From an uncultured Eubacteriales bacterium (GTDB taxonomy: Bacteria; Bacillota; Clostridia; Christensenellales; Aristaeellaceae): a stretch of DNA of 57,712 bases. Shown here piece after piece: positions 10,654 through 25,755 of the stretch; position 1 is the first letter of the stretch, and the number at the start of each line of letters is the position of its first letter. Location of the stretch: positions 1 to 57,712 of the forward strand of contig CADCHI010000024.1 of NCBI GenBank assembly GCA_902801165.1, in the 5' to 3' direction. The notes under the pieces were generated by a model. That model was given only the letters and a program-made list of their open reading frames with translations. It had not been told where the DNA came from and ran no database searches. A program made the position numbers and the translations under genes.

Positions 10654-11268
10654 TCAGCCCTTCGCCTGCGGCGCGCCGTTGAGGCGCTCGCCGACGGCCC
10701 CGCCGGGGTGGATGCGGGCGAACTGCTCGCTCCGGTAGCCCGTCTCCTCGATCAGGGCGGCCTGGAGGGCGTGGGCGATCACGCACAGGGCGGTGGTGCT
10801 GGTGGTGCCCTGGGCGTTGTACTTGTCCGTCTCCCGGTTCACGTGCTGCACCAGCACGACGTCGGCGGCCTGGGCCAGGGGCGACTCCGTGTTTTCGGTG
10901 ATGGTGATGACGGACACGCCCTTCTGCTTGCAGATGTCGAGGATCGGCAGCAGCTCCTTGGTCTTGCCACCCCGGGAGGCGAAGATCATCACGTCACCGG
11001 CCTGGAGAAAGCCGGACGCGCCGTGCACCGCCTCCGCCGGGGAGATAAAGCGGGCGGGGCGCTCGATGCAGCACAGCAGGTGGGCGATGTGCTGGCAGAC
11101 GATGCCCGAGTGGCCGCAGCCGGCCGTGCCGATGCGGGGGGCATCCTTCAGCAGGCGGACGGCCTCGGAAAAGGCGTCGTCGTCAAAGAAGGCCTTCATC
11201 TCCTCAATGCAGTCCCGTTCGATGTCATAGGCGGCCTTCGCGGCCGCCAGCGCGCTTGCGCTGATCAT
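10654..11268 (-). CDS. SIS-domain sugar-phosphate isomerase/binding protein
   Basis: 204 residues. I choose the ATG at 11268, preceded by GAGGAGGAA, rather than the upstream TTG at 11289. The SIS fold is shown by RIGTAGCGHSGIVCQHIAHLL (phosphosugar-binding loop), DVMIFASRGGKTKELLPI (Ser/Thr-rich phosphate site with Gly-Gly) and a C-terminal HPGGAVGE resembling KpsF/GutQ-type arabinose-5-phosphate isomerases without CBS domains. Such proteins bind or isomerise phosphosugars. It starts 13 bases after the CBM9-like gene, in one operon with that gene and the ROK regulator. The neighbours point to sugar catabolism; the substrate is unknown. Confidence 0.82.
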   Translation of the reverse strand: MISASALAAAKAAYDIERDCIEEMKAFFDDDAFSEAVRLLKDAPRIGTAGCGHSGIVCQHIAHLLCCIERPARFISPAEAVHGASGFLQAGDVMIFASRGGKTKELLPILDICKQKGVSVITITENTESPLAQAADVVLVQHVNRETDKYNAQGTTSTTALCVIAHALQAALIEETGYRSEQFARIHPGGAVGERLNGAPQAKG

Positions 11269-11281: not shown

Positions 11282-11875
11282 TCAGTCAAAGATCATCAGG
11301 CCGAAGTCCTGGGGACGGTGGAAGCTCGGCGTGTCGCTGGTGCAGGGGTTCCAGGCCAGGTAGTGCTCGGCCACGGTCAAATCGCCGCACTTGTAGCAGT
11401 TGGCGCGGATGCCGTCGCCGGCCTTCGGGGCGAAGCCGGGCACGAACACGCGCACGAACTCAAAGGGCACGGCGTACTCCACCTCCCAGCCGTCCGGGGT
11501 ACGCCGGGTCTCGACGCCCAGCCAGTCCCGCTCGGGCAGCAGGCGCACCGCCTCCTTGCCGTCCCCGAAGCCGAGGTACAGGCTCCCGTTCGGGTTGAAC
11601 TCGATGTTGAAGTAGCGGGGGTCGCCCGGGGTGGGGGAGAAGAAGAACTCGAGGCAGCTGTCCTCGCAGGGCATGCCCAGCGGGCCGGTGTGCTCCGCGC
11701 GGATGTTCGCCTCCCGGGCCCTCAGGCGGACATACAGCCGGTCGCCGTCCCAGGCGATCTGGGCCCAGGCGGAGATGTCCACCCGAGGCCGCCAGAGCTG
11801 CTCGTCGATGTCCAGCACCGGAACGGAGCTCCAGTCCGGTTTGCCGCTGACGCGGACGATGTGGTATTGCTTCAT
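11282..11875 (-). CDS. CBM9-like carbohydrate-binding protein, no signal peptide
   Basis: 197 residues from the ATG at 11875; the open frame continues upstream in the ROK coding region but is not credible there. The protein resembles the family-9-like carbohydrate-binding (DOMON-like) fold: AQIAWDGDRLYVRLRA, then DSCLEFFFSP, YFNIEFNPNG, and GWEVEYAVPF. There is no signal peptide, so it appears cytosolic, unusual for a carbohydrate-binding module and typical of short stand-alone 'family 9-like' proteins of unknown role. Its ATG overlaps the ROK stop (ATGA), showing translational coupling. The CYKCGD segment is not a zinc site I can name. Confidence 0.72.
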   Translation of the reverse strand: MKQYHIVRVSGKPDWSSVPVLDIDEQLWRPRVDISAWAQIAWDGDRLYVRLRAREANIRAEHTGPLGMPCEDSCLEFFFSPTPGDPRYFNIEFNPNGSLYLGFGDGKEAVRLLPERDWLGVETRRTPDGWEVEYAVPFEFVRVFVPGFAPKAGDGIRANCYKCGDLTVAEHYLAWNPCTSDTPSFHRPQDFGLMIFD

Positions 11876-13098
11876 GGGGTACTCCCTTCTTTGAGCATGC
11901 TGTACACCCAGCGGTATTCGTCGCTGTGCAGGAATTGGGTAAACATCTCCGCCGCCGCGCCAAGGGGGATGCGGCTCTCGAGCTCGGGGGAGGTGCAGAT
12001 CTCGTAGTCCCGGGACAGCTCCAGGGTCTGGCTGCGAATGGCCTCCCCGAGGCGGTCCAGGTAGAAGCCGCCCAGCTCCAGCATGTAGCCGTAGAGCACG
12101 ATCCGCTCCGGGTTCAGCAGGTTCACGGCGTTGGCGATGGCCGTTCCCGCCAGCCGCGCGGCGCGGTCGACGTAGTGGCGGCACAGGCTGTCGCCCGCCT
12201 CCAGGGCCTTGCGCAGGGCCTGGGGGGAGAGGTCGCCGTGGCCCAGGGAGGTGCTCGCGCCGCGCTCGATGGCGGCGGCGATGCTCCGGGCCAGCTCCGG
12301 GAAGGACGCGCCGGTCTCCACGCAGCCCGCCTTGCCGCAGTAGCACAGCTCCCGGGCGTTCAAATCCACCACGGTGTGGCCCAGCTCGCCGGCCACGCCG
12401 TGGGCGCCGCTGATGGGCGTGCCGTTGCAGTAGATGGAGGTGCCGATGCCGTTGGAGAGCTCCACGCAGATGAAGTTGTCCGAGCCCTTGGCCGTGCCGT
12501 ACTGCCGCTCCACCAGCGCCGGCAGCGTGACCGCGCTCAGCGTCCGCACCGGCAAGCCGAAGCGCGCCTCCAGCATCGGGTTAAGCCGCAGGTGCACCCA
12601 GTCGTTGAAGTGGCGGTAGTTCGCGGAGATCGGGCTGCCCTTCTGGTAGCCGGCGGGGTCGACCAGCGGGTCGCCGATGCCGATGCCCACCATGTGCATG
12701 TCCCCGACATCGGCCAGCAGCCGCTCCACGCACCTGGCGATGAGCTCCGTCAGCGCGTCGGGCCCGCAGCCGGGGTCGCCCTGGCAGACCTCTTCGCGGA
12801 CGATGGTGCCGTCCAGGCGGGCCAGCACGGCGGTCGCGCGGTTGTGGGCGATGGAGATGCCCACGGCGCAGATGGCGCGCCGGTTCAGGTCCACCGTCGG
12901 GCGGCGGCGGCCGGTGCTGTGGGCGGACAGCCCCGCCTCGACGGCCAGACCCTCGTCCAGCAGTTCCTTGGCGATCTCGCCCACCGTCGCCAGCCGGAAG
13001 CCCGACATCTCCATCAGCTTGGTGCGGCTGATGGGTCCGAAGGCGTTGATCAGGTTCAGCAGGACGTAGCGCTGGAAATCGCGGTTGTAGCTCTTCAT
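11872..13098 (-). CDS. ROK family transcriptional regulator (NagC/XylR-like)
   Basis: 408 residues from the ATG at 13098 (MKSYNRDFQRYVLLNL). An in-frame ATG at 13131 has no ribosome site; GGGAAGGA lies about 14 bases before 13098, so the start is not fully settled. Residues 1-75 form a winged helix-turn-helix (GPISRTKLMEMSGFRLATVGEIAKELL). The rest is the ROK sugar-kinase-like fold with GVAGELGH and the CYCGKAGCVE zinc-binding signature. The DNA-binding domain makes it a regulator rather than a kinase. The family responds to sugars or sugar phosphates. It leads the ROK / CBM9-like / SIS operon and probably controls it and perhaps the neighbouring catabolic genes. Confidence 0.9.
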   Translation of the reverse strand: MKSYNRDFQRYVLLNLINAFGPISRTKLMEMSGFRLATVGEIAKELLDEGLAVEAGLSAHSTGRRRPTVDLNRRAICAVGISIAHNRATAVLARLDGTIVREEVCQGDPGCGPDALTELIARCVERLLADVGDMHMVGIGIGDPLVDPAGYQKGSPISANYRHFNDWVHLRLNPMLEARFGLPVRTLSAVTLPALVERQYGTAKGSDNFICVELSNGIGTSIYCNGTPISGAHGVAGELGHTVVDLNARELCYCGKAGCVETGASFPELARSIAAAIERGASTSLGHGDLSPQALRKALEAGDSLCRHYVDRAARLAGTAIANAVNLLNPERIVLYGYMLELGGFYLDRLGEAIRSQTLELSRDYEICTSPELESRIPLGAAAEMFTQFLHSDEYRWVYSMLKEGSTP

Positions 13099-13133
13099 GG
13101 TTTTCGCGCCATCCTTCCCGTTTCGCCGCATGG

Positions 13134-13227: not shown

Positions 13228-14553
13228 TCAGATGCCGCGCTGCATCTCGTAGACGGACTCGAGGATGGAGTCGGCCATGTAGTCGACCTGCTCCTTGGTC
13301 AGCCCGTACACCGGGAAGTGGGTGAAGCGCTTGTAGAACACTTCCTCGCAGTTCGGGCAGGTCTCGGCGATGGCGTCCTCGTCATAGCCGTAGGTCTGCA
13401 TGATGTTGAAGCGGTACAGCGGGCCGAAGTGGGGGATGTTGGTGACGCCCCGGGCGTCCAACTTCTTCTTCAGCAGCTGCACGTCGCCGCCGGCCTTCTC
13501 CGGGTTCACCAGCAGCTTGTACAGGTGGAAGGTGGGCTTGATGTCCTCGTTGCCAAGGTCCTGCAGGCTCAGCGCGTCGCCGGCCTCCTTCAGGCGGTCG
13601 TTCAGGTAGGTGGCGCAGGCGCGGCGGGCGCCGATGATCTCCTCGATGCGCTTGATCTGCTGGCACAGGCCCAGGCCCTGGATCTCGGTGGTGGAGGCGT
13701 TGCCGGCCACGAAGGGCTTCTTCCAGCCTTGGCAGGCGGTCACGTCATACAGCCAGTCCTTGATCTTGCGGGAGAAGTCGGTGCCCAGGAAGCGGGCGCG
13801 GCGCATGTCGCCCTTGAAGGCCTCGATGTTGGTGCACAGGATGCCGCCCTCGCCGAAGGAGGTGATGTTCTTCACCTCGTGGAAGCTGAAGGCGCCGAAG
13901 TCCGCGATGGTGCCCAGCATCTTGCCGTGGTACATGCCGCCGAAGCCGTGGGCCGCGTCCTCCAGCACCAGGATGTTGTGCTCCTTCGCCAGCTTCATGA
14001 TGGGGTCCATGTCCACGGGATAGCCGCCGATGTGCACCGGCACGATCATGCGGGTGCGGTCGGTGATCTTGCGGGCCACGTCCGCGGGGTCCATGTTCAG
14101 CGTGAGGGGATCCACGTCCGCGAACACCAGCTTGCAGCCGATGGACAGCGGATAGGCCATGGTGGCGATGAAGGTGATGGCCGGCACGATGACCTCGTCG
14201 CCGGGCTCCAGGTTCACGTACTTGTAGGCGATCTCAAAGCCGGCGGTGCAGTTGGTCACGAAGGTGGAGCCGGTGGTGTGCAGGTACTCGTCGCACATGT
14301 TCTCCGCCCGGGCCACCACGTTGTCCAGGGACAGCTTGGCCGGCGGCTCGGAGACCTTGTCCAGCGCGAAGATGTCCTTCTGGACGTCGGCGATGATCCT
14401 GTCGTATTCCTCGCCCTTGCCCTGCATCATGAAGCGAATGACCTCCATGACGTCCTCGGCATTGTAGTTTTCACCGACGGCAGCCCAGGGGACCCGGGTC
14501 TCACCGGTGTTGTATCTGAAGTCCGATGCCTTTTTCTTGTTGTCGCTCGCCAT
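13228..14553 (-). CDS. DegT/DnrJ/EryC1/StrS family PLP-dependent aminotransferase
   Basis: 441 residues. The fold-type I sugar aminotransferase signature is clear: VTNCTAGFEIAYKYVNLEPGDEVIVPAITFIAT, then DVDPLTLNMDP, VHIGGYPVDMD, LEDAAHGFG, and the PLP Lys in FHEVKNITSFGEGG. Members usually aminate keto-sugars with glutamate. The segment at residues about 35-80 (MQGKGEEYDRI...CDEYL) is about 40 residues longer than in typical family members. The next gene upstream in transcription is a Gfo/Idh dehydrogenase, so oxidation of a sugar and transamination of the ketone, or the reverse, is a reasonable pairing by inference. The ribosome site AAAGGAG lies ahead of the ATG. Confidence 0.9.
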   Translation of the reverse strand: MASDNKKKASDFRYNTGETRVPWAAVGENYNAEDVMEVIRFMMQGKGEEYDRIIADVQKDIFALDKVSEPPAKLSLDNVVARAENMCDEYLHTTGSTFVTNCTAGFEIAYKYVNLEPGDEVIVPAITFIATMAYPLSIGCKLVFADVDPLTLNMDPADVARKITDRTRMIVPVHIGGYPVDMDPIMKLAKEHNILVLEDAAHGFGGMYHGKMLGTIADFGAFSFHEVKNITSFGEGGILCTNIEAFKGDMRRARFLGTDFSRKIKDWLYDVTACQGWKKPFVAGNASTTEIQGLGLCQQIKRIEEIIGARRACATYLNDRLKEAGDALSLQDLGNEDIKPTFHLYKLLVNPEKAGGDVQLLKKKLDARGVTNIPHFGPLYRFNIMQTYGYDEDAIAETCPNCEEVFYKRFTHFPVYGLTKEQVDYMADSILESVYEMQRGI

Positions 14554-14719: not shown

Positions 14720-15763
14720 TCACAGGTCGATGATCCTGCCCGTGTCGTTGGAGAGATAGGCCGCCTCCATCACGCGCTGCACCTGTACCGCGTCGGAGGC
14801 GGGCACCTCCAGCGGCGCGCCGGTGAGCAGCGAGTTGCAGAAGCTCTCCACCTCCCGCTGGTAGAGGTTTCCGAAGGTCACGTCGATGTGCTCGCCCTGG
14901 GCGGTCTTGGAGTTCTGCACGGCGTCGTAGCCGCCCTGGGGACCCAGGAACAGCGCGTCCAGCTCGCCGCCGTCCACCTGTCCGATCACGTTCTGGCCCA
15001 TCAGGCGGCCCTGGTCGCCGAAGAACTCCAGGCGCCAGCGGGCGGCCTCGTCCGGGATGTTGAAGTTGGACTGCACCATGCACTGCACGCCGTTTTCCAT
15101 GCGCAGCATCACCATGGAGGAGTCCTCCACCTCGTAGTGGAAGGACAGCGTGTCGTGGAACGCGGCCACCTGCTTCACCTTGGTGCCCAGCACGTACTGC
15201 ATCAGGTCGATGCAGTGCACGCCCATGTCCATCATCGCGCCGCCGCCGCCGGCCTTCTTGCTCTGGCGCCACACGCCGGGCATGTCCGGATACCAGCAGG
15301 TGAACTGGGAGAAGCCGGAGACGGGCCGGCCGATCTTGCCCTCGGCGATGGCCTTTTTCATGGCCTGGACATAGGCGCCGAAGCGCATCATCAGGCCCGC
15401 GGCGATCTTCACGCCCTTGGCCTCGCAGTAATCCAGCACCTTCTGGCCCTCCTCCGAGGACATGGCCAGGGGCTTTTCGATGAGGATGTGCTTGCCCGCG
15501 TCCGCGGCCATCATGGCCTGGCGCGCGTGCAATACCACCGGGGAGGCGATGTACACCGCGTCGATCTCGGGGTCGGCCAGCAGCGCCGCCTCGCTGTCAT
15601 AGGCGCGGGCGCAGTTCCACTTTGCCCGGCATTTTTCCGCCAGCTCCATGTTGATCTCCATGACGGCCACCAGCTCGGCATTGTCGCACAGCAGCATGCC
15701 CGGGATCGTGCGCCGATCCGCGATGCCGCCCGCGCCGATGACGCCCCAGCGAATTTTCTTCAT
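14720..15763 (-). CDS. Gfo/Idh/MocA family NAD(P)-dependent oxidoreductase
   Basis: 347 residues from the ATG at 15763 (MKKIRWGVIGAGGIADRR) with AGGAG upstream; the open frame upstream is a GC-rich artefact. The Rossmann motif GAGGIA is at residues 9-14, the family EKP motif (HILIEKPLAMS) near residue 95, and KKAGGGGAMMDMGVHCIDLMQY supplies the catalytic Asp/His. The family oxidises or reduces sugars, inositols and sugar phosphates. It sits between the sugar ABC transporter and the DegT aminotransferase and is probably co-transcribed with the latter (164-base gap, no clear terminator). Substrate unknown. Confidence 0.9.
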   Translation of the reverse strand: MKKIRWGVIGAGGIADRRTIPGMLLCDNAELVAVMEINMELAEKCRAKWNCARAYDSEAALLADPEIDAVYIASPVVLHARQAMMAADAGKHILIEKPLAMSSEEGQKVLDYCEAKGVKIAAGLMMRFGAYVQAMKKAIAEGKIGRPVSGFSQFTCWYPDMPGVWRQSKKAGGGGAMMDMGVHCIDLMQYVLGTKVKQVAAFHDTLSFHYEVEDSSMVMLRMENGVQCMVQSNFNIPDEAARWRLEFFGDQGRLMGQNVIGQVDGGELDALFLGPQGGYDAVQNSKTAQGEHIDVTFGNLYQREVESFCNSLLTGAPLEVPASDAVQVQRVMEAAYLSNDTGRIIDL

Positions 15764-16071: not shown

Positions 16072-16087
16072 CCCGTTTCTGAAAGGA

Positions 16088-17131
16088 TTAGTCGAAGGTC
16101 CAGAAGTCCTCGACGTTGGTGCTGTCGACCATGAACAGATCGATGTTGGTCTTGTCCGGGACATCCTCGCCATTGTAGTAGGCGATGGCGCCGTCGAAGA
16201 TGAACTGGGCCAGAACCCACGCATCGACGTTCAGGCAGGCGGCGTAGTGGGGATCCTCGTCATGCAGCAGGCCGAAGGGCTCGGAACCATAGGCGCCCAT
16301 GGAGAACACCTTCACGTCGTCCTTGCCGAGCTGCTCCAGCGCGGACACAGCGCCCTGAGCGCCGTTGTCAACGTCGGAGATGATGTACTCGTAGGGCTGC
16401 ACCACGGCGGCGACGGCCTTCTCAGCGGTCTCGCGGTTGCCCTGGCTGTCGTACTTGTCGATGATGTTGACCTTGATGTCGTCGGCGGCGTTGAAGGTGT
16501 CATGCAGGCCCTCGAAGCGGATCTGGCAGTGCTCGGACACCGCGTTGGTCAGCTCGATGATGGTGGCCTCGGTCTGGCCCTTCGCGCGCAGATAGTCCAG
16601 GAAGTAGTTGGCGGTGATGACGCCGGTGTCGTACTGATCCCAGGTCACGGTGGTGATGACCTTCTCGGTCTCGGTGTTGCCTTCCTCGTCGCGCCACTCG
16701 CCGTCGAAGATGATGATCGGGATGCCAGCATCATAGGCGGCGTTCAGGGCTTCGCTGACGCCCGTGAAGGTGGTGGGGTCGACCATCATGATGTCCACCT
16801 TGTTGGAGATCATGTTCTCGATCTGCTTGGTCTGGGTCTCGTCGTTCAGGTCGCCGTCCTCGACGGTGATATCAGCGCCGTAGTAAGCGCCCAGCGCCTC
16901 GAGGCCGCTGGCAACCGCCGCGCACCACTCGTCGCCCTTGTAGACGATGGAGCAGCCGATGCGCTTGCCTTCCAGCACGTCGGTGTCCTGCAGCTGGACC
17001 GCCGCCGGGATGCCCAGGGCCGCAGCCTTCTCATCACCGGACAGGGTGGAAGTGTCGACGGTCTCCGCCAGCGCGGCGACGCTGGTCAGCAGCATGGCCA
17101 GCACCAGGATCAGGGAAAACAGCTTCTTCAT
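16088..17131 (-). CDS. Sugar ABC transporter substrate-binding protein (RbsB-like)
   Basis: 347 residues. The signal peptide MKKLFSLILVLAMLLTSVAALAE ends in an AxA site and has no lipobox Cys. The mature part is a type 1 periplasmic-binding (ribose/galactose-binding-like) fold: GKRIGCSIVYKGDEWCAAV, then VDIMMVDPTT, AGIPIIIFDGEWRDEEG, and DVKVFSMGAYGSEP. It should capture a sugar outside the membrane for the ATPase and permease encoded just upstream in transcription. A 10-bp hairpin precedes its AGGAGG ribosome site and a terminator follows the stop, so its mRNA may be present in excess over the other subunits. Ligand unknown. Confidence 0.92.
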   Translation of the reverse strand: MKKLFSLILVLAMLLTSVAALAETVDTSTLSGDEKAAALGIPAAVQLQDTDVLEGKRIGCSIVYKGDEWCAAVASGLEALGAYYGADITVEDGDLNDETQTKQIENMISNKVDIMMVDPTTFTGVSEALNAAYDAGIPIIIFDGEWRDEEGNTETEKVITTVTWDQYDTGVITANYFLDYLRAKGQTEATIIELTNAVSEHCQIRFEGLHDTFNAADDIKVNIIDKYDSQGNRETAEKAVAAVVQPYEYIISDVDNGAQGAVSALEQLGKDDVKVFSMGAYGSEPFGLLHDEDPHYAACLNVDAWVLAQFIFDGAIAYYNGEDVPDKTNIDLFMVDSTNVEDFWTFD

Positions 17132-17152
17132 GGATACAACCTCCTCTTTTTA

Positions 17153-17176
17153 TTTAAACAGGCGCACCTGTTTAAA
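17153..17176 (-). other. Perfect hairpin just upstream of the RbsB-like gene
   Basis: TTTAAACAGG / CCTGTTTAAA with a 4-base loop, followed on the minus strand by TAAAAAGAGGAGG, so the stem ends a few bases before the ribosome site. It could be an attenuator after the ATPase gene or a 5' stabiliser of the binding-protein mRNA. A similar hairpin precedes the other binding-protein gene at 52440. Confidence 0.65.
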
Positions 17177-17224
17177 AATCGTGAATGGGTCCGGCCGGGA
17201 GGCCGGAGGTGACGGGTCTGTGGT

Positions 17225-18703
17225 TTACACGCACATCGCCATGATCTTCTCCTGGGTGGCCTCCTCGGCGGTCAGCTCGCCCATCTTGTGGCCCTCGTGC
17301 ATGACCATGATGCGGTCGCACATGCCCAGCAGCTCGGGCATCTCGGAGGAGATCATGATGACGGTCTTGCCCTCCTTGACCATCTCGTTGATCAGGCGGT
17401 AGATCTCGGACTTCGCGCCGACGTCGATGCCTCGGGTGGGCTCGTCCAGGAACAGGATCTCCGCCTCCTGGAACAGCCACTTGGCGATGACGACCTTCTG
17501 CTGGTTGCCGCCGGAGAGGTACTGCACCTCGGTGTCCATGGACGGCGTGATCACGCGCAGCTTCTTGGCGTATTCCTGGCTCAGCGTCTCCTCCAGGTCG
17601 CTCTTGATGACGCCCCTGGGGGCGATGCGGGGCAGGTTGACCAGCGTGGTGTTGCGCTTGACGGTCATGATCTGCACCAGGCCCTGCAGCTTGCGGTCCT
17701 CGGGAATCAGGCCGAGGCCGTCCTTGATGGCGTCCGCGAAGGTGCGGTAGTGGGTCTTCTTGCCGCGCACGAACACCTCGCCGGACTCGGGCTTGTCGAT
17801 GCCCAGAATCGCCCGGGCCAGCTCGGTGCGGCCTGCGCCGACCAAACCGGAGATGCCGAAGACCTCGCCTGCTTTCACTTCAAAGCTGATGTCCTTCAGG
17901 ATGCCCCGGGACAGGTGCTTGACCTCCAGGATCGTGCCGCCGATGTTGCCGGGCTCCTTCGGGTATTCCTGGCCCATTTCGCGGCCGACCATCATGTTGA
18001 TCAGGCTGGTGCGGTCAAGCTGTCCGATGGGCAGCGTGTCGATGTGCCGGCCGTCGCGCAGCACGGACACGTTGTCGCACAGGTCGAACACCTCGTCCAG
18101 GCGGTGGGAGATGTAGATGATGGTGATGCCCTTCTCCCGCAGCTGGCGGACGATGCGGAACATGACCTCCAGCTCGCGGTTGGTCAGCACGGCCGAGGGC
18201 TCGTCCATGACCAGGATCTTGGAGTTGTTGTTGATGGCGTGCATGATCTCGACGATCTGCTTCTTGGCCACCGTCAGGCTGGACACCTGCGCGTTGACGT
18301 CGATGTCCATGCCCAGGTCGTCCACGATCTCGCGGGCGCGCTGGCGCATGCCCTTCCAGTCCACCAGGTGGCCCTTCATCATCACGTTGCCCAGAAACAT
18401 GTTCTCGGCCACGGACAGCGGCTCGGCCAGCTTGATCTCCTGGTGCACCACGCTGATGCCGGCGGCGCGCGCCTCGATGGGAGAGGCGAACTTGCGGCTC
18501 TGGCCCTCCAGCACGATCTCGCCGTGCTCCGGGTGGTAGATGCCCGCCAGCACCTTGATCAGCGTGGACTTGCCCGCGCCGTTTTCACCCACCAGGCCGT
18601 GGATGGTGCCGCGCTCGATGTTGATGGTCACATCGTCCAGCGCCTTGACGCCCGGAAATTCCTTGGTGATGCCCTTCAGGCTCAATATGATATCCCTGCT
18701 CAT
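17225..18703 (-). CDS. Sugar ABC transporter ATP-binding protein (RbsA/MglA/XylG-like, two ATPase domains)
   Basis: 492 residues from the ATG at 18703; the open frame extends far upstream within the permease coding region and should be ignored. Domain 1 has Walker A GENGAGKST near residue 39, a degenerate signature (SSLTVAKKQIVEI) and Walker B ILVMDEPSAVL. Domain 2 has a modified Walker A (GLVGAGRTELARAILG), a canonical YLSGGNQQKVVIAKWL signature and ILFLDEPTRGIDVGAK. This asymmetric tandem layout is that of CUT2 sugar importers. It energises uptake with the permease (18745-19731) and the binding protein (16088-17131). Cytosolic face of the membrane. Confidence 0.95.
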   Translation of the reverse strand: MSRDIILSLKGITKEFPGVKALDDVTINIERGTIHGLVGENGAGKSTLIKVLAGIYHPEHGEIVLEGQSRKFASPIEARAAGISVVHQEIKLAEPLSVAENMFLGNVMMKGHLVDWKGMRQRAREIVDDLGMDIDVNAQVSSLTVAKKQIVEIMHAINNNSKILVMDEPSAVLTNRELEVMFRIVRQLREKGITIIYISHRLDEVFDLCDNVSVLRDGRHIDTLPIGQLDRTSLINMMVGREMGQEYPKEPGNIGGTILEVKHLSRGILKDISFEVKAGEVFGISGLVGAGRTELARAILGIDKPESGEVFVRGKKTHYRTFADAIKDGLGLIPEDRKLQGLVQIMTVKRNTTLVNLPRIAPRGVIKSDLEETLSQEYAKKLRVITPSMDTEVQYLSGGNQQKVVIAKWLFQEAEILFLDEPTRGIDVGAKSEIYRLINEMVKEGKTVIMISSEMPELLGMCDRIMVMHEGHKMGELTAEEATQEKIMAMCV

Positions 18704-18744
18704 TTCATCCCAACCTTTCTCAGTTTCATCGTCCACTGTCAAGG

Positions 18745-19731
18745 TCAGGACTTTTTGCGGTTGGACACGACGTCGAGCACGATGGCCAGCACCAGCACGA
18801 TGCCCTTCAGCACGTCCTGCACGAAGGGATCGACGCCCATCATGGAGAAGCCGTTGAACAGCGTGTTCAGGAAGATGCAGCCGAACATGGTGCCCAGCAC
18901 GAAGCCCTTGCCGCCCGCCAGGGAGACGCCGCCGATGATGGAGGAGATGACCGCGTCGAACTCGTAGTTCTGGCCGTTGGTGACGGCGACGGAGTTCAGG
19001 CGGCTCATCAGGATCAGGCCGCCGAAGGTGGCCAGGATGCCGCCCAGCACGAAGGTGCCGAAGTGGATCAGCTTCACGTTGATGCCGGAGAAGAAGGCGG
19101 CCTCGCGGCTGCCGCCCACCGCGTACAGCTTGCGGCCGATGCGGGTCTTGGAGGTGACGAACTGTGCGATGATGTACAGCGCCAGCATGATGACCACGCA
19201 GATCGGTATGACGTTCAGCACGTAGCCGCGGCCCAGCCAAGAGATCTCCTTGGGCATCTTCGGGATCGGGACGGCCTGGGTGATCAGCTTGGCCACGCCG
19301 TAGCAGATGTACTGGTTGCCCAGCGTGGCGATCATGGCCGGCACGCCGATGTAGGAGACCAGCAGGCCGTTCAGGGAACCCACGCAGATGCCGATCAAGA
19401 ACATGATGAGGATTGCCGGCAGAATGGGCCAGCCGGCGTTTTTCATCAGGATGCCGCCGACGCAGCTGGTCAGGCAGACCAGGCGGCCCAGGGAGAGGTC
19501 GAAGTTACCGGTCAGCAGCATGATGGACTGTCCGAGAGCCACGATGGCCACAGTCGCCGTCTGGAGCAGGATGGTCTTCCAGTTCTGCCAGGTCAGGAAG
19601 TACTGCGCGCCGAATTTCACGTACGACAGTATGGTGAACACGATGACCAGCAGCGCGATGCCCACCAGGGACATCCACTTTTTGACAAACGATTTGATTC
19701 TGTTGGGGGTGGAAACGCTCGCAGTATTCAT
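18745..19731 (-). CDS. Sugar ABC transporter permease (RbsC-like)
   Basis: 328 residues, about 9-10 hydrophobic helices. CUT2 permease landmarks are LTGNFDLSLGRLVCLTS (the usual GIDLSVG-type motif), NGLLVSYIGVPAMIATLGNQYI, IGRKLYAVGGSREAAFFSGINV (cytosolic loop contacting the ATPase) and SSIIGGVSLAGGKGFVLGTMFG. It forms the transmembrane channel of the importer with the ATPase encoded 41 bases downstream. It lies after the NagB-like gene in the same direction with a short gap, so one operon is likely. Confidence 0.94.
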   Translation of the reverse strand: MNTASVSTPNRIKSFVKKWMSLVGIALLVIVFTILSYVKFGAQYFLTWQNWKTILLQTATVAIVALGQSIMLLTGNFDLSLGRLVCLTSCVGGILMKNAGWPILPAILIMFLIGICVGSLNGLLVSYIGVPAMIATLGNQYICYGVAKLITQAVPIPKMPKEISWLGRGYVLNVIPICVVIMLALYIIAQFVTSKTRIGRKLYAVGGSREAAFFSGINVKLIHFGTFVLGGILATFGGLILMSRLNSVAVTNGQNYEFDAVISSIIGGVSLAGGKGFVLGTMFGCIFLNTLFNGFSMMGVDPFVQDVLKGIVLVLAIVLDVVSNRKKS

Positions 19732-19782
19732 TCAATCAGTCCTCCCGATTCTTCAAAACAACTCTGTGGCCTTCACCGGCGA

Positions 19783-20751
19783 TCAGTAGCCGACCTTCTC
19801 CCAGCACTCGAAGGGCGCCGCGACCTCCTCGCTGATGTAGACCTGGGTCTTCATGGTCTGAAGCATCGAGCTGGGCACCAGAGGCGTCACCGGGCCGTGG
19901 GTGACCAGGCGGGACGTCATGCGCTGCCAGGAGGAGAAGGTGTTGTTGGTCAGCAGGGCGTGCACCTCGATGCGCTCCTTGGCCCGCTTCACGTCCACGG
20001 GGCCGATGGTGGCCGCCCTGGGCGGCACGCTGGTCACGTAGCCGGACTGGCCGAACACGCCGTGCAGGCTGTTCTGCGCCACTGTCAGCGGGTGCAGCGT
20101 TACGATGCGGGCCTCCAGGTTCAGCCACTCGTCGATGTCGTCCCGCACGAACTCCGGCACGGGATCGATGAAGGCCGCGTGGCCGGTCCAGCCGGGGGAG
20201 GTGGAGATGATGTCCGCGCCGCCCTCGGTGATGTCGTTGATCAGCTTGGAGTAGTGGCCGATGTTCGCGTTCGTCGGATAGTGGACGTTCTCCAGCGGCA
20301 TGCGCAGCTTGGGGTCGATCTGGTACACCAGGTACTTCAGCATCGAGTGCACGAAGCCGGCCTCGTAGGTCTCGGGGGCGATGTTGCCCTCGTCGTCAGC
20401 CCACTCGTCCTCGGCGAAGATGTGCACCTTGGAGCAGTCCACCTGGAAGTAGTTGATCAGCTGCGCCAGGGGGATGTAGGTCTCGGGCTCCGGGTTGCCC
20501 AGGATCATGGAGAACTTCCTGCCGGCTTCGCTGGCGGCCTTGAGGCGGGCAAACAGCGTGGCGATCAGCACCGGGTGGGGGTTCATCATGACCTTCACCT
20601 TGAACTCGGGGTGCTGCCAATCCTCGTGCTTTTCCAGCTCTTCGCGGGTCAGAAGGCGCACGCGCTCGCAGACCTCACGATCCTTGAACGGCACATAGTC
20701 GCCCGATTTGAAGTAGAATTTCGTCGGAGGATCAAAGATGATGTCTTTCAT
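19783..20751 (-). CDS. NagB-like sugar-phosphate isomerase/deaminase, altered active site
   Basis: 322 residues, longer than typical glucosamine-6-phosphate deaminase (about 240-270). The NagB/RpiA/6-phosphogluconolactonase fold is visible as VLIATLFARLKAASEAGRKFSMILG, IFAEDEWADDEG (counterpart of the catalytic MDEY/DEW region) and TSPGWTGHAAFIDPVPEF (counterpart of GVDGHIAFNEP). In that second motif the canonical Asp is Thr, the His is kept, and Glu is replaced by Asp, so the amino-sugar deaminase chemistry may differ. Its ATG overlaps the stop of the NagA-like gene by four bases (ATGA), showing coupling. It probably acts on the phosphosugar released by that deacetylase; the exact sugar is unknown. 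Confidence 0.78.
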   Translation of the reverse strand: MKDIIFDPPTKFYFKSGDYVPFKDREVCERVRLLTREELEKHEDWQHPEFKVKVMMNPHPVLIATLFARLKAASEAGRKFSMILGNPEPETYIPLAQLINYFQVDCSKVHIFAEDEWADDEGNIAPETYEAGFVHSMLKYLVYQIDPKLRMPLENVHYPTNANIGHYSKLINDITEGGADIISTSPGWTGHAAFIDPVPEFVRDDIDEWLNLEARIVTLHPLTVAQNSLHGVFGQSGYVTSVPPRAATIGPVDVKRAKERIEVHALLTNNTFSSWQRMTSRLVTHGPVTPLVPSSMLQTMKTQVYISEEVAAPFECWEKVGY

Positions 20752-21899
20752 GGCTGCTCTTCTCCTTTTATTAGAATGGTTTTGACTTCCATATTATAGT
20801 CGGTGAGGATGAGGTCCGCCCGCTTGCCCACGGCGATCTCGCCGCGATCCGTGAAGCCGGTGGCCTGGGCGGGGTTGTAGGAGGCGAACTGGAACACGTT
20901 GACGATGGAGGCGCCGGTGTGCTTCATCATGTTGCGGCAGGCGACGTCCAGCGTCAGCTTGGAGCCGGCGATCTCGCCGGTCCAGTCGAAGTTGATGTCG
21001 TACACCCCGTCATAGCCCGGGGGCGTGGGGCCGTCCGCCGCGTAGGCGTCGGAGATCAGTATGATCCTGTCATCGCCCTTGATCTTGCGCACCAGCCGCA
21101 GCATGAAGGGGTCCACGTGGATGCCCCGGCTGTCGCAGATCAGCTCGGCGTAGATGTCGTCGTGGAAGTTCACGTATTCGTCCACGCAGACGCCCTTCAC
21201 CTCGGGGTACTTCTCGATGGTGCCTGTGGCGTCCGTGTGGTGGGTGCCGATGCGCAGCCCGTAGGGCTTCACCGCGTCCAGCTGGAAGGGCTCCGCCTCG
21301 CTGTGGGCGACGGCAAACACCGCGTTGGGATTGGCGGCCTTCACGTCCCGCACGTAATCCAGGATGTGCTCCCGCTCCGGGGCGACGCACCACACCCGGG
21401 CCAGGTCCTTGGCGGCGTCGATGATCGGCTGGTACTGCGCCTTTTCGATCGGCCCGCGCCAGGGGTTGTTCTCCTTGTCGCAGCCGAACTTGGGGTTCAG
21501 GTAGGGGCCTTCCATGTACAGGCCGCCGATGTTGGCGCAGCGGGGGTCCGCCATGGCCTTCCGGATGCAGGCGATGCTGTCCAGCCAGCCCTGCTGGTCC
21601 ATGCTGAAGTACAGCGCGGGCAGCACGGTGGTCGTGCCGTGGCGCAGGTGGTGCCGGGCCGCGGCGATGGGGTCGTCGATGAAGAATACCCGGTCGGAGG
21701 CGTGGGTGTGGATGTCGATCAGCCCGGGGCCCACGAACAGGCCGCCGGCGTCGAGGGTCTCACAGCCCTCCGGGACCGGCGTGGTGCGCATTTCGCCGAA
21801 GCCGGCGATCATCCCGTCCTCGATGAACAGGACGGCCTCCGGAATCAGGTGGTCGCGCATCACCAGTGTCGCGTTGACGATGGCCTTCACGCTATGCAC
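20748..21899 (-). CDS. N-acetylglucosamine-6-phosphate deacetylase-like amidohydrolase (NagA family)
   Basis: 383 residues, the family length. The amidohydrolase barrel shows GPGLIDIHTHASD, YMEGPYLNPKFGC (metal-binding Glu as in NagA EGPF), AVAHSEAEPF and GTHHTDATGTI (metal His residues), ILISDAYAADG (catalytic Asp), and the C-terminal FTDRGEIAVGKRADLILTD. Known family members remove the acetyl group from N-acetyl amino-sugar 6-phosphates in the cytosol. The start is GTG at 21899, overlapping the previous gene by 8 bases; a second in-frame GTG at 21890 is also possible. It is followed by the coupled NagB-like gene and a CUT2 importer. Confidence 0.85.
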   Translation of the reverse strand: MHSVKAIVNATLVMRDHLIPEAVLFIEDGMIAGFGEMRTTPVPEGCETLDAGGLFVGPGLIDIHTHASDRVFFIDDPIAAARHHLRHGTTTVLPALYFSMDQQGWLDSIACIRKAMADPRCANIGGLYMEGPYLNPKFGCDKENNPWRGPIEKAQYQPIIDAAKDLARVWCVAPEREHILDYVRDVKAANPNAVFAVAHSEAEPFQLDAVKPYGLRIGTHHTDATGTIEKYPEVKGVCVDEYVNFHDDIYAELICDSRGIHVDPFMLRLVRKIKGDDRIILISDAYAADGPTPPGYDGVYDINFDWTGEIAGSKLTLDVACRNMMKHTGASIVNVFQFASYNPAQATGFTDRGEIAVGKRADLILTDYNMEVKTILIKGEEQP

Positions 21900-23250
21900 C
21901 TTCTTTTCCTGGTTTCAGTTCGTCCAGCAGCGCCAGGCCCTCGTCGATGATCCGCTCCGCCACGCCCGCGGCGTAGACCGAGCTGCGGGCCTCGTAGCCG
22001 CCCTCGTCGTAGGCCTCCCGCATGGGGAAGTAGCCCTCGTAGCCGTTGGTGATGCAGCAGGGCAGCACCAGCGCCCAGTCCGGGGCCTGCTTCAGCGCCC
22101 GACCGATGCCCGTGAAGGGCTCGCCGGGGAGGCCCACCAGCGCCACGTCGCCGATGACGGCGCAGGTCAGGGGCATCTCGAAGGCGCTGGGCCCGTGCTC
22201 CAGCCGGAGCATCCGCTCCGCCTCGGCCACCACGGTGGTCAGCTCCATGCCCTCGAAGGGGATCTCCGCGTCCCGACCGGCCCGGTGAAGGGCCTCGTAG
22301 CGGCGGGCGGTCTCCAGCTCCTCCGGGCGAGGCAGGTTCGAGGGCACCTCGATGCGCCGGATCCTGCCGGCGAGGCGGTCGACCTCGCGCCAGCAAACCT
22401 TGTCGTAGACCTGGAGCACCGCGCCGGCCACCACGTTGCCGATGTGCCGGGCGTGGCCGTATCCCCGGGCCACGTCGTCAAAATCCATGAAGAGGTCGTT
22501 CAGGTCGCCGCCCACGGGGTGGACGTTGACGTGGTTGACGTCGCCCTGGGCCCCGTTGAAGAACAGGCAGCGCACGCCGTCCAGCGCCTTCTCCACCCGC
22601 CGGCGCAGGAACCCGGGCCAGTCCGCCGAGAGCCGGCTGCCGCCCACCACGTCGGGGTGGTTCCCGAAGTTGACCAGAACGATGTCCGGCGCGCCTTCCC
22701 GCTGGAAGCGCAGCACGTTCACCCGGTCGTCCACCTCGCCGATGGGGGCGAGGATGTCCGGGTTGTTGACGCCCGGATTGGTGCGGATGCCGCCGTCGCG
22801 CATGCGGAAGCGCCGGACGAAGGCGACGCCCGGGGCGCGGCCGGTGCCGCAGCCCATGCGGGCGGGCTTGAGGTCCTCCATCGCCGCGCGGGCGGCGTCG
22901 GCGAGGCGAGCCTCCAGCCAGCGGGTGTATTCCGCCACGGCGGGGTCGTCGCCCTCGCCCCAGAAGGGGGAGGTGTGGGTGTGGGTGGCGGAGATGAACA
23001 CGCATTCCGGCGCGATGCCGGCCGCCTCGGCGACGCGGGCCCGGCAGCGGTCGTACACCGCCGTCGGCGCGAGGCCGCAGTTGTCCACGCTGACAAAGGC
23101 CAGGGCGCTCTCCCCGCAGCGCAATGCGAGGACGTTGACCTCCAGCGGGTCCAGCACGCCCTCGGCGGTCCTGGGGACATAGTAGCCCGATATTCCAATG
23201 CCCATCAGGGGCGTGATATCCATTCGAGCGAAACCAGCTTTCAGAGTCAT
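21892..23250 (-). CDS. Neutral/alkaline ceramidase-like N-terminal domain protein, cytosolic
   Basis: 452 residues. It matches the catalytic N-terminal domain of neutral ceramidase-like proteins: FARMDITPLMGIGISGYY, ISATHTHTSPFW (conserved HTHxxP), FGNHPDVVGGS, FFNGAQGDVNHV (conserved NGxxGDVN) and GLPGEPFTGIG. These residues bind zinc in the amidase family. The usual C-terminal immunoglobulin-like domain and a signal peptide are absent, so it should act inside the cell, which makes true ceramide an unlikely substrate. It is the first gene of the NagA/NagB/ABC operon, directly behind a near-consensus promoter. Hydrolysis of an N-acylated or otherwise modified sugar is inference from context. 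Confidence 0.85.
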   Translation of the reverse strand: MTLKAGFARMDITPLMGIGISGYYVPRTAEGVLDPLEVNVLALRCGESALAFVSVDNCGLAPTAVYDRCRARVAEAAGIAPECVFISATHTHTSPFWGEGDDPAVAEYTRWLEARLADAARAAMEDLKPARMGCGTGRAPGVAFVRRFRMRDGGIRTNPGVNNPDILAPIGEVDDRVNVLRFQREGAPDIVLVNFGNHPDVVGGSRLSADWPGFLRRRVEKALDGVRCLFFNGAQGDVNHVNVHPVGGDLNDLFMDFDDVARGYGHARHIGNVVAGAVLQVYDKVCWREVDRLAGRIRRIEVPSNLPRPEELETARRYEALHRAGRDAEIPFEGMELTTVVAEAERMLRLEHGPSAFEMPLTCAVIGDVALVGLPGEPFTGIGRALKQAPDWALVLPCCITNGYEGYFPMREAYDEGGYEARSSVYAAGVAERIIDEGLALLDELKPGKEGA

Positions 23251-23288
23251 GTGCCCGCCTCGCTTCCCATGATAAATTCCATGGTGAT

Positions 23289-23317
23289 ATTTTAACTGTA
23301 ATTTTCATATTTGTCAA
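23289..23317 (-). promoter_or_regulatory. Promoter of the ceramidase-like/NagA/NagB/ABC operon
   Basis: On the minus strand TTGACA (23317-23312), a 17-base spacer and TAAAAT (23294-23289), about 40 bases before the start codon at 23250. Confidence 0.85.
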
Positions 23318-23549
23318 CAAAATTCCCTTGGGTATTGTACATTATCATCAAAATCGATAGAATAAAACGCAAAAAATTATGAAAGAAGCACAAACAAAAG
23401 CCGCGCAGTATTGAATTTTAGTTTTGATTTTGGAAATCTCAGAAGGGGAGCGCCCGGGTGACGGAGCGCACGGCCCAGAGGGAAAACTGAATAGGAAAAA
23501 GAAAAATAATATTTTCTATATGAAAATGAAATGGTCGAAAAACAAAAAT

Positions 23550-23578
23550 TTGACAAGCTGTGATTTATTCGATATAAT
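23550..23578 (+). promoter_or_regulatory. Consensus promoter of the TIM-like/YjbQ/DeoR operon
   Basis: Perfect TTGACA (23550-23555), 17-base spacer, perfect TATAAT (23573-23578), 35 bases before the start codon at 23613. Such a strong promoter next to a DeoR gene suggests repression. Confidence 0.92.
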
Positions 23579-23612
23579 GACAATAGAAAAAACTGAAAGA
23601 GAGGCGCTTTTT

Positions 23613-24305
23613 ATGACGAATATCAAGGCTCCCTTCTTTGAAATCGGGCCGAAGTCCTACCTCTACGGGCAGGATGTCATCGACCTGGCCGTGGCTGCCG
23701 ACGCCGCCAGCGAGCGGTACGGGGTGGACATCATCTTCACCACGCCCGTGGTGGAGATCGCCCGGGTCAAGGCCGCGACCCGGCACATCCACGTCTTCGC
23801 CCCCCACATGGACCCGCTGCGTCCGGGCCGGGGCCTGGCGGACACGCTGCCGGAATCGCTGGTGGCCGCGGGCGCGGAGGGTGTCATGCTGAACCACTGT
23901 GAAAAGCCGCTGAGCCTGAGCGTGCTGAAGGCGACCATCGAGCGGGCGAAGGAAGTGGGCCTGACGACCATCGTCTGCGCCGATTCCTGCGCGGAGGCCG
24001 GGATGATTGCCCACCTGAAGCCGGACATCATCGTGGCCGAGCCGTCGGAGCTGGTGGGCACGGGCGTCTCCTGCGGGCCGGAATACGTCAAGACCGCCAC
24101 CCGGGCCGTGAAGGACGTGGACCCGGATATCCTGGTGCTGACCGCGGCGGGCATCGCCAACGGCCAGGACGTGTATGACATCATCGCCGCCGGCGCGGAC
24201 GCCACGGGCTCCTCGTCCGGCGTCGCCAAGGCCGCCGACCGGGCCGCGATGGTGGACGAGATGATCAGCGCCGTGCGCCGCGCCTGGGACGAGCGGCACG
24301 CGTAA
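23613..24305 (+). CDS. Triose-phosphate-isomerase-fold protein, archaeal-type short form
   Basis: 230 residues from the ATG at 23613 with GAAAGAGAGG upstream; the frame is open upstream through the promoter but that part is not coding. Landmarks of a short TIM are the motif VMLNHCEKPLS (counterpart of the GHSERR electrophilic His region), ADSCAEAGMIAHLKPDIIVAEPSELVGTG (catalytic Glu in loop 6 region) and LTAAGIANGQDVYDIIAAGADATGSSSGVAKA (phosphate-binding loops). The arrangement resembles archaeal TIMs (about 225 residues) rather than the 250-residue bacterial form. Because it belongs to a sugar operon and not a glycolytic cluster, it may isomerise another short phosphosugar such as a tetrulose phosphate (inference). 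Confidence 0.82.
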   Translation: MTNIKAPFFEIGPKSYLYGQDVIDLAVAADAASERYGVDIIFTTPVVEIARVKAATRHIHVFAPHMDPLRPGRGLADTLPESLVAAGAEGVMLNHCEKPLSLSVLKATIERAKEVGLTTIVCADSCAEAGMIAHLKPDIIVAEPSELVGTGVSCGPEYVKTATRAVKDVDPDILVLTAAGIANGQDVYDIIAAGADATGSSSGVAKAADRAAMVDEMISAVRRAWDERHA

Positions 24306-24359
24306 CGGCGCGCACAGCCAGTCAATCAATTGCACACAACATAAAGGAGGAAACACAAC

Positions 24360-24980
24360 ATGGAATTCAAGGTCTATCAGAAGGAACTCGAACTGCAGTC
24401 CCGCGGCTGGGTGCCGACCTTCCACGACGTGACCAAGGAGGTCAACGAGATCGTCGCCGCCTCCGGCGTCAAGAACGGCACCTGCACCGTGGCCTCCCAC
24501 CACACCACCTGCTCCGTGATGATCCAGGAGTGCTCCCACGACATCGACAGCTTTGACCTGGAGTACCTCCAGCACGACCTGCTGGACATCATGCGCAAGA
24601 TGATCCCGGACTTCGCCGAGGAGCACCAGTACCGCCATCCCGGCCCGATTCACCTCAAGTACGGCCGCTTTGTGAACGAGCCCGGCGACTTCACCTCCAT
24701 GAACACCGACGGCCACCTGCGCAGCGTGTTCTTCGGCCGCAGCGAGGCGCTGACCATCAAGGACGGCGTGCTGGACGGTGGCGAGTTCGCCCACATCTAC
24801 TTCGTCGACTGGGACCACGTGCGCGCCCGCCATCGCCAGCTGAACATCACCGTGATGGGCACCACCGAGGACGTTGAGGACCGCAAGTGGAACAACGGCG
24901 AGGTCATCAACACCCTGCGCAAGTACACCGACGAGGAGAAGGCGGAGGACGTCCACTACACCCTGCAGCAGAAGCGCTGA
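24360..24980 (+). CDS. YjbQ family (UPF0047) protein
   Basis: 206 residues behind an excellent AAAGGAGG site. It belongs to the YjbQ/UPF0047 family, seen from VTKEVNEIVAASGVKNGTCTVASHHTTCSVMIQE, HDLLDIMRKMIPD, and HLRSVFFGRSEALTIKDGVLDGGEFAHIYFVDWDHVRARHRQLNITVMG. Databases describe members as secondary thiamine-phosphate synthase because of weak rescue in E. coli, but the real role is unsettled. This copy is longer than the usual ~140 residues and lies in a sugar operon between a TIM-like gene and a DeoR regulator, so a phosphosugar-related function is worth considering (inference). Confidence 0.85.
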   Translation: MEFKVYQKELELQSRGWVPTFHDVTKEVNEIVAASGVKNGTCTVASHHTTCSVMIQECSHDIDSFDLEYLQHDLLDIMRKMIPDFAEEHQYRHPGPIHLKYGRFVNEPGDFTSMNTDGHLRSVFFGRSEALTIKDGVLDGGEFAHIYFVDWDHVRARHRQLNITVMGTTEDVEDRKWNNGEVINTLRKYTDEEKAEDVHYTLQQKR

Positions 24981-25005
24981 ACCCGTGCCTGCCCGGAGAA
25001 CGCCC

Positions 25006-25755
25006 ATGGCTGGAAAGACACTGAAAATTGATCTGCGCCGCGCGAGGATCCTCGAGCTGCTGGACCGGGACCGCCAGGTCTCCGTCGCGCAGCTCAGCGA
25101 GGCGCTGGGCGCCACCACCGTGACGATCCGCACCGACCTGGCGGCCCTGGAACGGGAGAACCGCCTGCGCCGCGTGCGCGGCGGCGCCAGGGCCGTGGAG
25201 CCGGAGCCGGGCTTTGGAAGCTGGCCCCGGGAAAAGGCGGCAATCGGGCGCGCCATCGCGGAGCGCGTCCGGGACGGCGAGAGGCTGTTCATCAACTCCG
25301 GCACGACCTCCAGGGCCGTGGCCGCCGAGCTGAGGCGCTTCCGGGAGCTGGCGGTGGTCACCAACTCGCCGCCCGTGGCCGCCATGCTGTGCGACCGCTT
25401 CCATGTGGTGCTGCTGGGCGGCAGCGTGAGCGCCGGCGGCGACTTCACCTCCGGCGAGGACACACTGAACCAGCTGGCCCGCTACCAGACGGACTGGGCC
25501 ATCGTCTCCGTGGACAGCATCTCCGCCGCCGAGGGCGTGTCGATCTGCCACCCGGAGGAGTCCGCGGTCTCCCGAGGCATGCTGGAGCGAGCCGCCCGGG
25601 GCGTGATCGTCGCCGATCACACCAAGGTGGGGCGCACCGGCTTCGTGCGCATGTGCGCCGCTGCCGCGCCGCTGATGCTGGCGACCGACCGCGAGGCCGA
25701 CGCCGGCGAGTTGGACGCGCTGCGAAGCGCCGGCGTGGAGGTACTGCTGGCCTGA
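25006..25755 (+). CDS. DeoR family transcriptional regulator
   Basis: 249 residues from the ATG at 25006, with a CGGAGA site. Residues 8-60 form the DeoR helix-turn-helix (ARILELLDRDRQVSVAQLSEALGATTVTIRTDL). Residues 75-245 are the phosphosugar-sensing domain (FINSGTTSRAVAAELRRF, VVLLGGSVSAGGDFTSG, VIVADHTKVGRTGFVR), as in GlpR/AgaR/FruR-type repressors. It is the last gene of the TIM-like/YjbQ operon and is followed by a strong terminator. It is the obvious candidate to control both divergent arms; the inducer would be a sugar phosphate of this pathway. Confidence 0.93.
   Translation: MAGKTLKIDLRRARILELLDRDRQVSVAQLSEALGATTVTIRTDLAALERENRLRRVRGGARAVEPEPGFGSWPREKAAIGRAIAERVRDGERLFINSGTTSRAVAAELRRFRELAVVTNSPPVAAMLCDRFHVVLLGGSVSAGGDFTSGEDTLNQLARYQTDWAIVSVDSISAAEGVSICHPEESAVSRGMLERAARGVIVADHTKVGRTGFVRMCAAAAPLMLATDREADAGELDALRSAGVEVLLA

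Follow-up and report, generated by a model that had tools for sequence, protein, structure and literature searches.

A divergent gene cluster with NagA-like, NagB-like, ceramidase-like, triosephosphate-isomerase-like and YjbQ proteins: a possible two-module sugar catabolic locus in an uncultured Eubacteriales bacterium

Introduction

What kind of pathway would bring together a ceramidase-like hydrolase, a NagA-like amidohydrolase and a NagB-like isomerase/deaminase with a triosephosphate isomerase (TIM) paralogue, a YjbQ protein and a DeoR-family regulator? These six genes lie in two divergent arms on a contig of an uncultured Eubacteriales bacterium (CADCHI010000024.1; our contig C24), whose whole length of 57,712 nucleotides was analysed and is called the window below. 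The draft genome of the host is of 3.55 Mb and is 88.6% complete. A preliminary description of the cluster proposed that a sugar derivative is imported, deacylated, isomerised and broken down to small phosphosugars, and this scheme fits the annotations as read from the sequence. Searches of open-licence papers gave us no description of this cluster. From the analysis described here we think, with somewhat less than even confidence, that the cluster is one catabolic locus composed of two conserved modules, and that it may serve an amino-sugar-type route in which phosphorylation comes after the NagA/NagB-type steps.

Results

Association of the two arms in related loci

A scan of genome contigs with the NagB-like protein confirmed 157 relatives, and the best 80 loci were analysed. 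The flanks fetched around 23 of these 80 loci were shorter than 14 kilobases, and the locus counts use a greedy choice of open reading frames. The loci were titled Clostridia, Oscillospiraceae, Lachnospiraceae and similar, and many came from ruminants and other herbivores. At E<1e-30, NagA-like genes were found in 59 loci, TIM in 34, and ceramidase-like and YjbQ genes in 32 each. Clustering of the open reading frames added FGGY kinases (28 loci), SIS-domain proteins (28), CBM9-like proteins (25), ROK-family proteins (11) and FSA-type transaldolases (9).

TIM or YjbQ was located inside the flanks of the NagB-like gene in 36 of the 80 loci, and TIM was on the same strand as the NagB-like gene in 25 of the 34 loci that had it. 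Gene order was highly variable, and a fixed inherited arrangement is therefore an unlikely cause of the association. The partners were not evenly distributed. Among the 36 loci holding TIM or YjbQ, 28 have SIS, as against 0 of the 44 others; the corresponding values were 25/36 and 3/44 for FGGY, and 9/36 and 0/44 for the transaldolase. That is, these three families track TIM and YjbQ rather than the NagB-like gene as such, and we therefore distinguish two modules.

Co-occurrence in 200 genomes of the family

The same association was seen among 200 genomes of the window's family. Scanning with the NagB-like protein gave matches in 119 of them at E<=0.001, most of which we read as canonical or paralogous NagB, and a genome was regarded as NagB-like-positive when the match reached at least 1.5 bits per aligned residue. 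This left 13 genomes, including G020 and G133, in which the match is a contig-edge fragment. TIM was present in 12 of the 13 positive genomes and in 7 of the 187 others; for YjbQ (long and short forms together, at E<=1e-30) the numbers were 11/13 and 8/187, for the ceramidase-like protein 12/13 and 8/187, for SIS 9/13 and 8/187, and for FGGY (E<=1e-110, seven candidates scored per genome) 8/13 and 23/187. When G020 and G133 were left out, 10 of 11 NagB-like genomes had TIM. TIM and YjbQ occurred together in 18 of the 200 genomes, and each occurred alone in one. Fisher p values were 1e-8 to 2e-23 for all associations but that with FGGY; these tests are not independent, owing to relatedness among the genomes and to overlap between the 80 loci and the 200 genomes. 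Taken with the linkage in the flanks, these results uphold the proposal that the two arms belong together.

Eight genomes with mid-scoring paralogues (about 1.0-1.3 bits per residue: G037, G045, G052, G077, G088, G124, G130 and G173) were treated as negative; of these, G037 alone has TIM, and its 49%-identical paralogue lies in the same locus (L128). G140 was also counted as negative, although it has YjbQ, SIS, FGGY, the ceramidase-like protein and a TIM that falls in the same clade as the window's. Among 11 sampled genomes of the window's genus only the present one has the set, and this patchy presence suggests horizontal transfer or frequent loss.

The second module in the absence of the NagB-like gene

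Seven TIM-positive genomes had no close NagB-like gene. The TIM/YjbQ loci of six of them also hold FGGY kinases, accompanied in five of these six by genes of a CUT1 importer (the importer label of L125 is weak, below the 80-bit threshold used for labels in our survey of 55 TIM loci). For the seventh genome, G040, the fetched contigs show TIM and YjbQ only. An AraA-type isomerase was found in five TIM/YjbQ loci that have no close NagB-like gene in the fetched stretch; three of these are in NagB-like-negative genomes (G014, G027, G036) and two are second copies in NagB-like genomes (G005, G020). Amidohydro_2 proteins accounted for 4 of 98 neighbours scanned. The module of TIM and YjbQ thus looks like a general ketose-processing unit, fed by either NagB-like or AraA-like enzymes.

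Most TIMs of the loci without a NagB-like gene fall together in a clade of their own (9 rows, support 100/100), and in all nine of these loci an additional, shorter YjbQ is found nearby. We also observed that a short YjbQ of about 164 residues adjoins the TIM of this clade in L122, L125, L128, L131, L135 and others, several of which have a long YjbQ a few kilobases away.

The NagB-like protein

The predicted model of the NagB-like protein had a mean pLDDT (predicted local distance difference test score) of 83. Its top 26 matches in the PDB were glucosamine-6-phosphate deaminases, among them 6nbg, which is a 'hypothetical protein' in one listing and a deaminase in another; 6-phosphogluconolactonases, which have the same fold, came next. 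No Pfam family matched at E<=0.001. The score against the PRK00443 subfamily was 23 bits, under the curated cut-off of 326, and no other NCBIfam family was listed.

We then compared the residues of the window protein and 19 relatives (20 rows) with the genome's own canonical NagB. We take D72, E73 and H143 of NagB to be catalytic, and the TG(S/G)T loop, Arg172 and Lys208 to be its phosphate contacts. The equivalents of D72, E73 and H143 (D115, E116 and H191) were retained in 20/20 rows. In contrast, the TGST phosphate loop is LGNP in the window protein, with Thr/Ser in 0/20 rows, and the R172 position held Arg in 0/20. The position of D141 was Thr in 16/20 rows and otherwise Ala, Ser or Met, and that of E148 was Asp in 19/20. 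The K208 position was an invariant Gln (Gln276) in one alignment and Trp275 in the structural alignment. The active-site changes noticed in the preliminary description are confirmed, and the loss of the loop and of R172, as judged from the alignment, makes binding of a phosphate by the NagB-like protein less likely.

Canonical NagB (272 bits, above the cut-off) and canonical TIM (193 bits) are encoded elsewhere in the genome; one TAG was flagged inside the NagB match, and the frame reads through the whole family. Ordinary use of N-acetylglucosamine (GlcNAc) was tried as a full explanation of the cluster and was rejected, given the separate canonical NagB and TIM and the scores of the window's NagB-like and NagA-like proteins, which miss the NCBIfam cut-offs. 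The genome has further NagB-like paralogues at C42:2399-3334 (294 bits) and C89:4054-4338 (109 bits, a fragment).

The NagA-like and ceramidase-like proteins

The NagA-like protein scored 153.4 bits against the curated nagA model, below its cut-off of 225.65. The HxH motif, Glu130, His199 and His220, presumably the metal site, and Asp284, presumably catalytic, were retained in 25/25 rows. The column of NagA His143 was Asp in 18 rows, Asn in 4, Glu in 2 and Leu in 1.

The model of the ceramidase-like protein (pLDDT 92.5) had four structural matches at E<=0.001, all of them neutral ceramidase chains, and its zinc-ligand motifs align with those of neutral ceramidases; the identity of the zinc ligands at these positions is our assumption. 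As judged by eye, without a signal-peptide tool, the protein appears to be intracellular. It was described before as a ceramidase-type amidase, and the ceramidase fold is borne out. Ceramidase activity is not implied, because the protein is below the Pfam gathering score (19.5 vs 32.1) and much shorter than solved ceramidases (452 residues vs 646 and 688).

TIM-like, YjbQ and partner enzymes

The TIM-like protein passed the cut-off of the archaeal-type PRK04302 subfamily (175.5 vs 132), and K14, H95, E97, E143 and the GTG of loop 6 were invariant in 14 rows. The long YjbQ matched PF01894 with 90.1 bits (cut-off 27) and missed TIGR00149 by 0.55 (67.2 vs 67.75). Eight distinct sequences of solved YjbQ structures were matched, and these members of 134-151 residues align with the 206-residue protein only in two separate stretches.

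Xylulokinase was the nearest model for the FGGY kinases of related loci, which fall below its cut-off. Xylulokinase-like FGGY kinases act on ketoses or polyols. In the present genome, contig C23 ends in an FGGY fragment that is close to the type found in the module and 71% identical to a member of the FGGY cluster. The earlier statement that the cluster has no kinase is thus correct for the window, but it does not extend to the wider system, in which 28 of the 80 loci hold the FGGY kinase and SIS is an additional isomerase. The FSA-type transaldolase occurred in 10 of the 55 TIM loci, a set that includes contigs fetched twice (e.g. L010/L108 and L046/L121), and the 25 commonest of 113 neighbour families include no classical aldolase.

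Layout of the cluster

All six genes are intact open frames, placed exactly or very nearly where the preliminary description had them, and the UPF0047, TIM, DeoR and Amidohydro_1 domains passed the Pfam cut-offs. The CUT2 importer, which had been counted within 19783-25755, is present and lies outside that range, at 16088-19731. The minus-strand run continues beyond it with five genes (Gfo/Idh, DegT, ROK, CBM9-like and SIS) that were absent from the earlier gene list, so that the enlarged minus arm spans 10,654-23,250 (Table 1). From strand and spacing, this run is probably one operon. The stand-alone CBM9-like protein recurs beside NagB-like genes in the 25 loci given above.

Table 1. Genes and promoter-like sites of the cluster, in positions of the window
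Feature	Positions	Strand	Basis or remark
SIS-domain sugar-phosphate isomerase, KpsF/GutQ-like below cut-offs	10654..11268	-	nearest solved relative 3fxa, named merely 'SIS domain protein'
Small stand-alone CBM9-like protein	11285..11875	-	PF16011
ROK-family regulator	11872..13131	-	best NCBIfam match NagC, 142 bits vs cut-off 650
DegT/DnrJ/EryC1 aminotransferase (pyridoxal phosphate type)	13228..14553	-	family scan
Gfo/Idh/MocA oxidoreductase	14720..15763	-	closest model IolG, below cut-off
CUT2-type substrate-binding protein	16088..17131	-	Peripla_BP_4
CUT2-type ABC ATPase	17225..18703	-	read from open reading frame, no family scan; relatives adjoin NagB-like genes elsewhere
CUT2-type permease	18745..19731	-	BPD_transp_2
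NagB-like isomerase/deaminase paralogue, canonical phosphate loop gone	19783..20751	-	fold, residues
NagA-like amidohydrolase, GTG start	20748..21899	-	HxH, Glu130, His199, His220, Asp284 retained
Putative zinc hydrolase, ceramidase-like, no longer than the catalytic domain	21892..23250	-	fold, aligned motifs
Promoter-like TTGACA-17-TAAAAT, upstream of minus arm	23289..23317	-	11/12 consensus positions
Promoter-like TTGACA-17-TATAAT, upstream of plus arm	23550..23578	+	12/12 consensus positions
Archaeal-type TIM paralogue, catalytic residues conserved	23613..24305	+	family scan, alignment
Long-form YjbQ/UPF0047 protein, 206 residues	24360..24980	+	family scan
DeoR-family regulator	25006..25755	+	family scan

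The two near-consensus divergent promoters proposed before were found again, each with a 17-base spacer. Sites with at least 9 consensus positions numbered 5, vs a mean of 0.8 (standard deviation 1.0) in 50 shuffles. No shared operator was detected by a scan of the intergenic region for inverted repeats and by exact shared 12-mers, these being simple scans made without a motif finder. The 12-mers in common with the upstream stretches of 73 TIM and ceramidase-like genes were AT-rich only, each shared by at most 2 genes. One copy of the 10-mer ATATGAAAAT lies close to each of the two promoters (23301-23310 and 23518-23527), and both copies face the same way with respect to transcription; in AT-rich DNA this may be chance. 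Within the plus arm, conservation is lowest for DeoR, which was found in 12 of the 80 loci at the threshold that gave TIM and YjbQ their 34 and 32.

Several neighbours were recorded. A lipoate-protein ligase family (cluster c19) lies between or near YjbQ and NagB-like genes in 5 of the 80 loci (L056, L067, L072, L073 and L081), and LplA domains were found in four neighbours scanned. Genes of pyruvate-dehydrogenase type adjoin in L029-L031 (by eye; one was tested). Beside the cluster in the window, the frames 25829-27199, 28182-29237 and 29451-30683 resemble, by eye and with no family scan, ArgH, an ADP-ribosylglycohydrolase-like protein and ArgG, respectively.

Discussion

A possible route

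We propose that the products of the first module (CUT2 importer, ceramidase-like, NagA-like and NagB-like proteins) would import an unphosphorylated, probably N-acylated amino-sugar-like compound, trim it and turn it into a ketose. Those of the second module (FGGY kinase, SIS, TIM-like protein, YjbQ and sometimes the FSA-type transaldolase) would phosphorylate the ketose, and may then rearrange or split the ketose phosphate to intermediates of central metabolism. The NagA/NagB-type steps would thus precede phosphorylation, an order opposite to that known for GlcNAc. We infer the order of the steps, the class of the substrate and all the reactions, including the action of YjbQ on a sugar phosphate as an isomerase, epimerase or lyase. 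The main reason why we read the NagB-like protein as making a ketose before the kinase acts is that AraA-type isomerases substitute for it. A stricter form of this proposal, in which the FGGY kinase acts only after deacylation, deamination and isomerisation of a free hexosamine-like sugar and YjbQ is an obligate isomerase, epimerase or lyase in series with the TIM paralogue and SIS, seems to us rather unlikely.

Several results weigh against the proposal of two modules with late phosphorylation. No TIM or YjbQ was found inside the flanks of 44 of the 80 NagB-like loci, and Gfo and DegT reached E<1e-30 in only 3 and 2 of the 80, numbers that short flanks may have lowered; most of the genomes are incomplete drafts. 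The cluster contains no FGGY gene and, as its closest copy is a fragment, this genome is also missing from the results of the 200-genome FGGY scan (seven of 23 candidates scored). Arg227 of NagA is, on our assumption, a phosphate-binding residue, and its column is Arg in 23/25 and Lys in 2/25 NagA-like rows, the window protein being one of the two; this would suit a phosphorylated substrate. In the NagB-like protein, R277, which adjoins the aligned K208 position, is Arg in 19/20 rows and could bind phosphate instead, and our literature search found no report of Arg172 and Lys208 as phosphate ligands. Finally, YjbQ is given as an alternative to ThiE, the thiamin phosphate synthase (PMC5613172), and the same role appears in a title cited by PMC4731195.

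In a different order of steps, an unlinked kinase would act after CUT2 import, the NagA-like and NagB-like enzymes would work on a sugar phosphate other than GlcNAc 6-phosphate (a 1-phosphate or the phosphate of an N-acyl galactosamine, for example), and TIM, SIS and YjbQ would follow downstream. The NagA-like metal ligands and catalytic Asp, retained together with the Arg/Lys of the phosphate site, the near-invariant R277 and R281 of the NagB-like family (19/20 each) and the NagC-like ROK regulator within the operon all agree with it. A weak clue in the same direction is a GH123 cluster in the flanks of 4 of the 80 loci (L072 and L073 have identical TIMs), of which three were tested and all match PF13320; we take GH123 to be a beta-N-acetylgalactosaminidase family. 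However, GH123 is not clearly enriched (6/13 NagB-like genomes vs 54/187) and gave no match at E<=1e-20 in this genome, no hexosamine kinase was evident among the commonest neighbour families (25 out of 123 in one survey, 25 out of 113 in another), and the NagB-like protein lacks the canonical phosphate loop and R172. We consider this order possible but unlikely. Another explanation removes the amino sugar altogether: the NagB-like protein would be a plain aldose-ketose isomerase or lactonase, the NagA-like and ceramidase-like proteins would cut another bond, and the compound degraded would be an unusual aldose, lactone or cyclitol derivative, with additional steps contributed by Gfo/Idh and DegT. 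The 6-phosphogluconolactonases as next structural matches, the replaced columns of NagB D141 and NagA His143, the AraA-type isomerases in sister loci and the similarity of Gfo to the inositol dehydrogenase model, below its cut-off, are in line with this explanation. Against it, every NagB-like row retains the counterparts of the catalytic D72, E73 and H143, the NagA-like protein with its conserved deacetylase metal site is found in 59 of the 80 loci, and all but one of the 13 NagB-like genomes have the ceramidase-like protein; we regard this explanation as quite unlikely.

The two arms might also be unrelated neighbours, with the DeoR arm serving a separate sugar or YjbQ serving thiamin synthesis, as the papers cited above would have it. 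The failure of the two simple scans to find a shared operator and the seven genomes with TIM and without a close NagB-like gene, where TIM is frequently accompanied by a CUT1 importer or an AraA-like enzyme, agree with such independence. However, TIM and the NagB-like gene share a strand in most loci that have both, in many arrangements, TIM accompanies the NagB-like gene in 12 of 13 genomes, and the commonest neighbour families in the two surveys (25 out of 123 and 25 out of 113) include no thiamin genes. We therefore think that independence of the arms is very improbable.

Two consequences of the two-module proposal may be pointed out. Several structures of YjbQ have been solved, yet its function is not settled. 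The near one-to-one pairing of TIM and YjbQ in this genome family, together with the linkage to SIS and FGGY, points to sugar phosphates and yields a small set of enzymes in which the reaction of YjbQ could be sought. In addition, if phosphorylation does come last, an amino-sugar route would lie concealed among genes annotated as NagA-like and NagB-like.

Comparison with known systems

The cluster resembles GlcNAc catabolism in its deacetylase-like and deaminase-like pair, its NagC-like ROK regulator, the NagB fold and the catalytic core residues. It differs in that the NagA-like and NagB-like proteins are under the family cut-offs, the NagB phosphate loop is lost, neither a phosphotransferase system nor a hexosamine kinase is seen in the cluster, and canonical NagB is separate; moreover, the cluster adds the ceramidase-like hydrolase, TIM, YjbQ and SIS. 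The ceramidase-like protein itself shares with neutral ceramidase the fold and the aligned zinc motifs, but it is shorter, below the Pfam cut-off and apparently intracellular. Likewise, the window's YjbQ belongs to PF01894 with other YjbQ/UPF0047 proteins, but its length exceeds that of the solved members and it is paired with TIM. According to a 2021 review (PMC7954711), YjbQ is of 'unknown function', and its overexpression rescues an E. coli mutant of pdxB, the gene for 4-phosphoerythronate dehydrogenase. This rescue is compatible with an action of YjbQ on small sugar phosphates, but does not show it.

For the second module, the nearest known plan is the erythritol pathway of Brucella and relatives, with a sugar kinase, EryH/TpiA2 (an extra TIM paralogue whose substrate is a tetrulose phosphate), a second sugar-phosphate isomerase, EryI, the DeoR-family regulator EryR and an ABC importer (PMC5992420, PMC10190533). 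TIM and DeoR are in the window, whereas the FGGY kinase is found as a fragment elsewhere in the genome and in relatives. Unlike the erythritol pathway, the present system has a SIS protein where that pathway has RpiB, adds YjbQ, and carries the NagA-like, NagB-like and ceramidase-like genes upstream.

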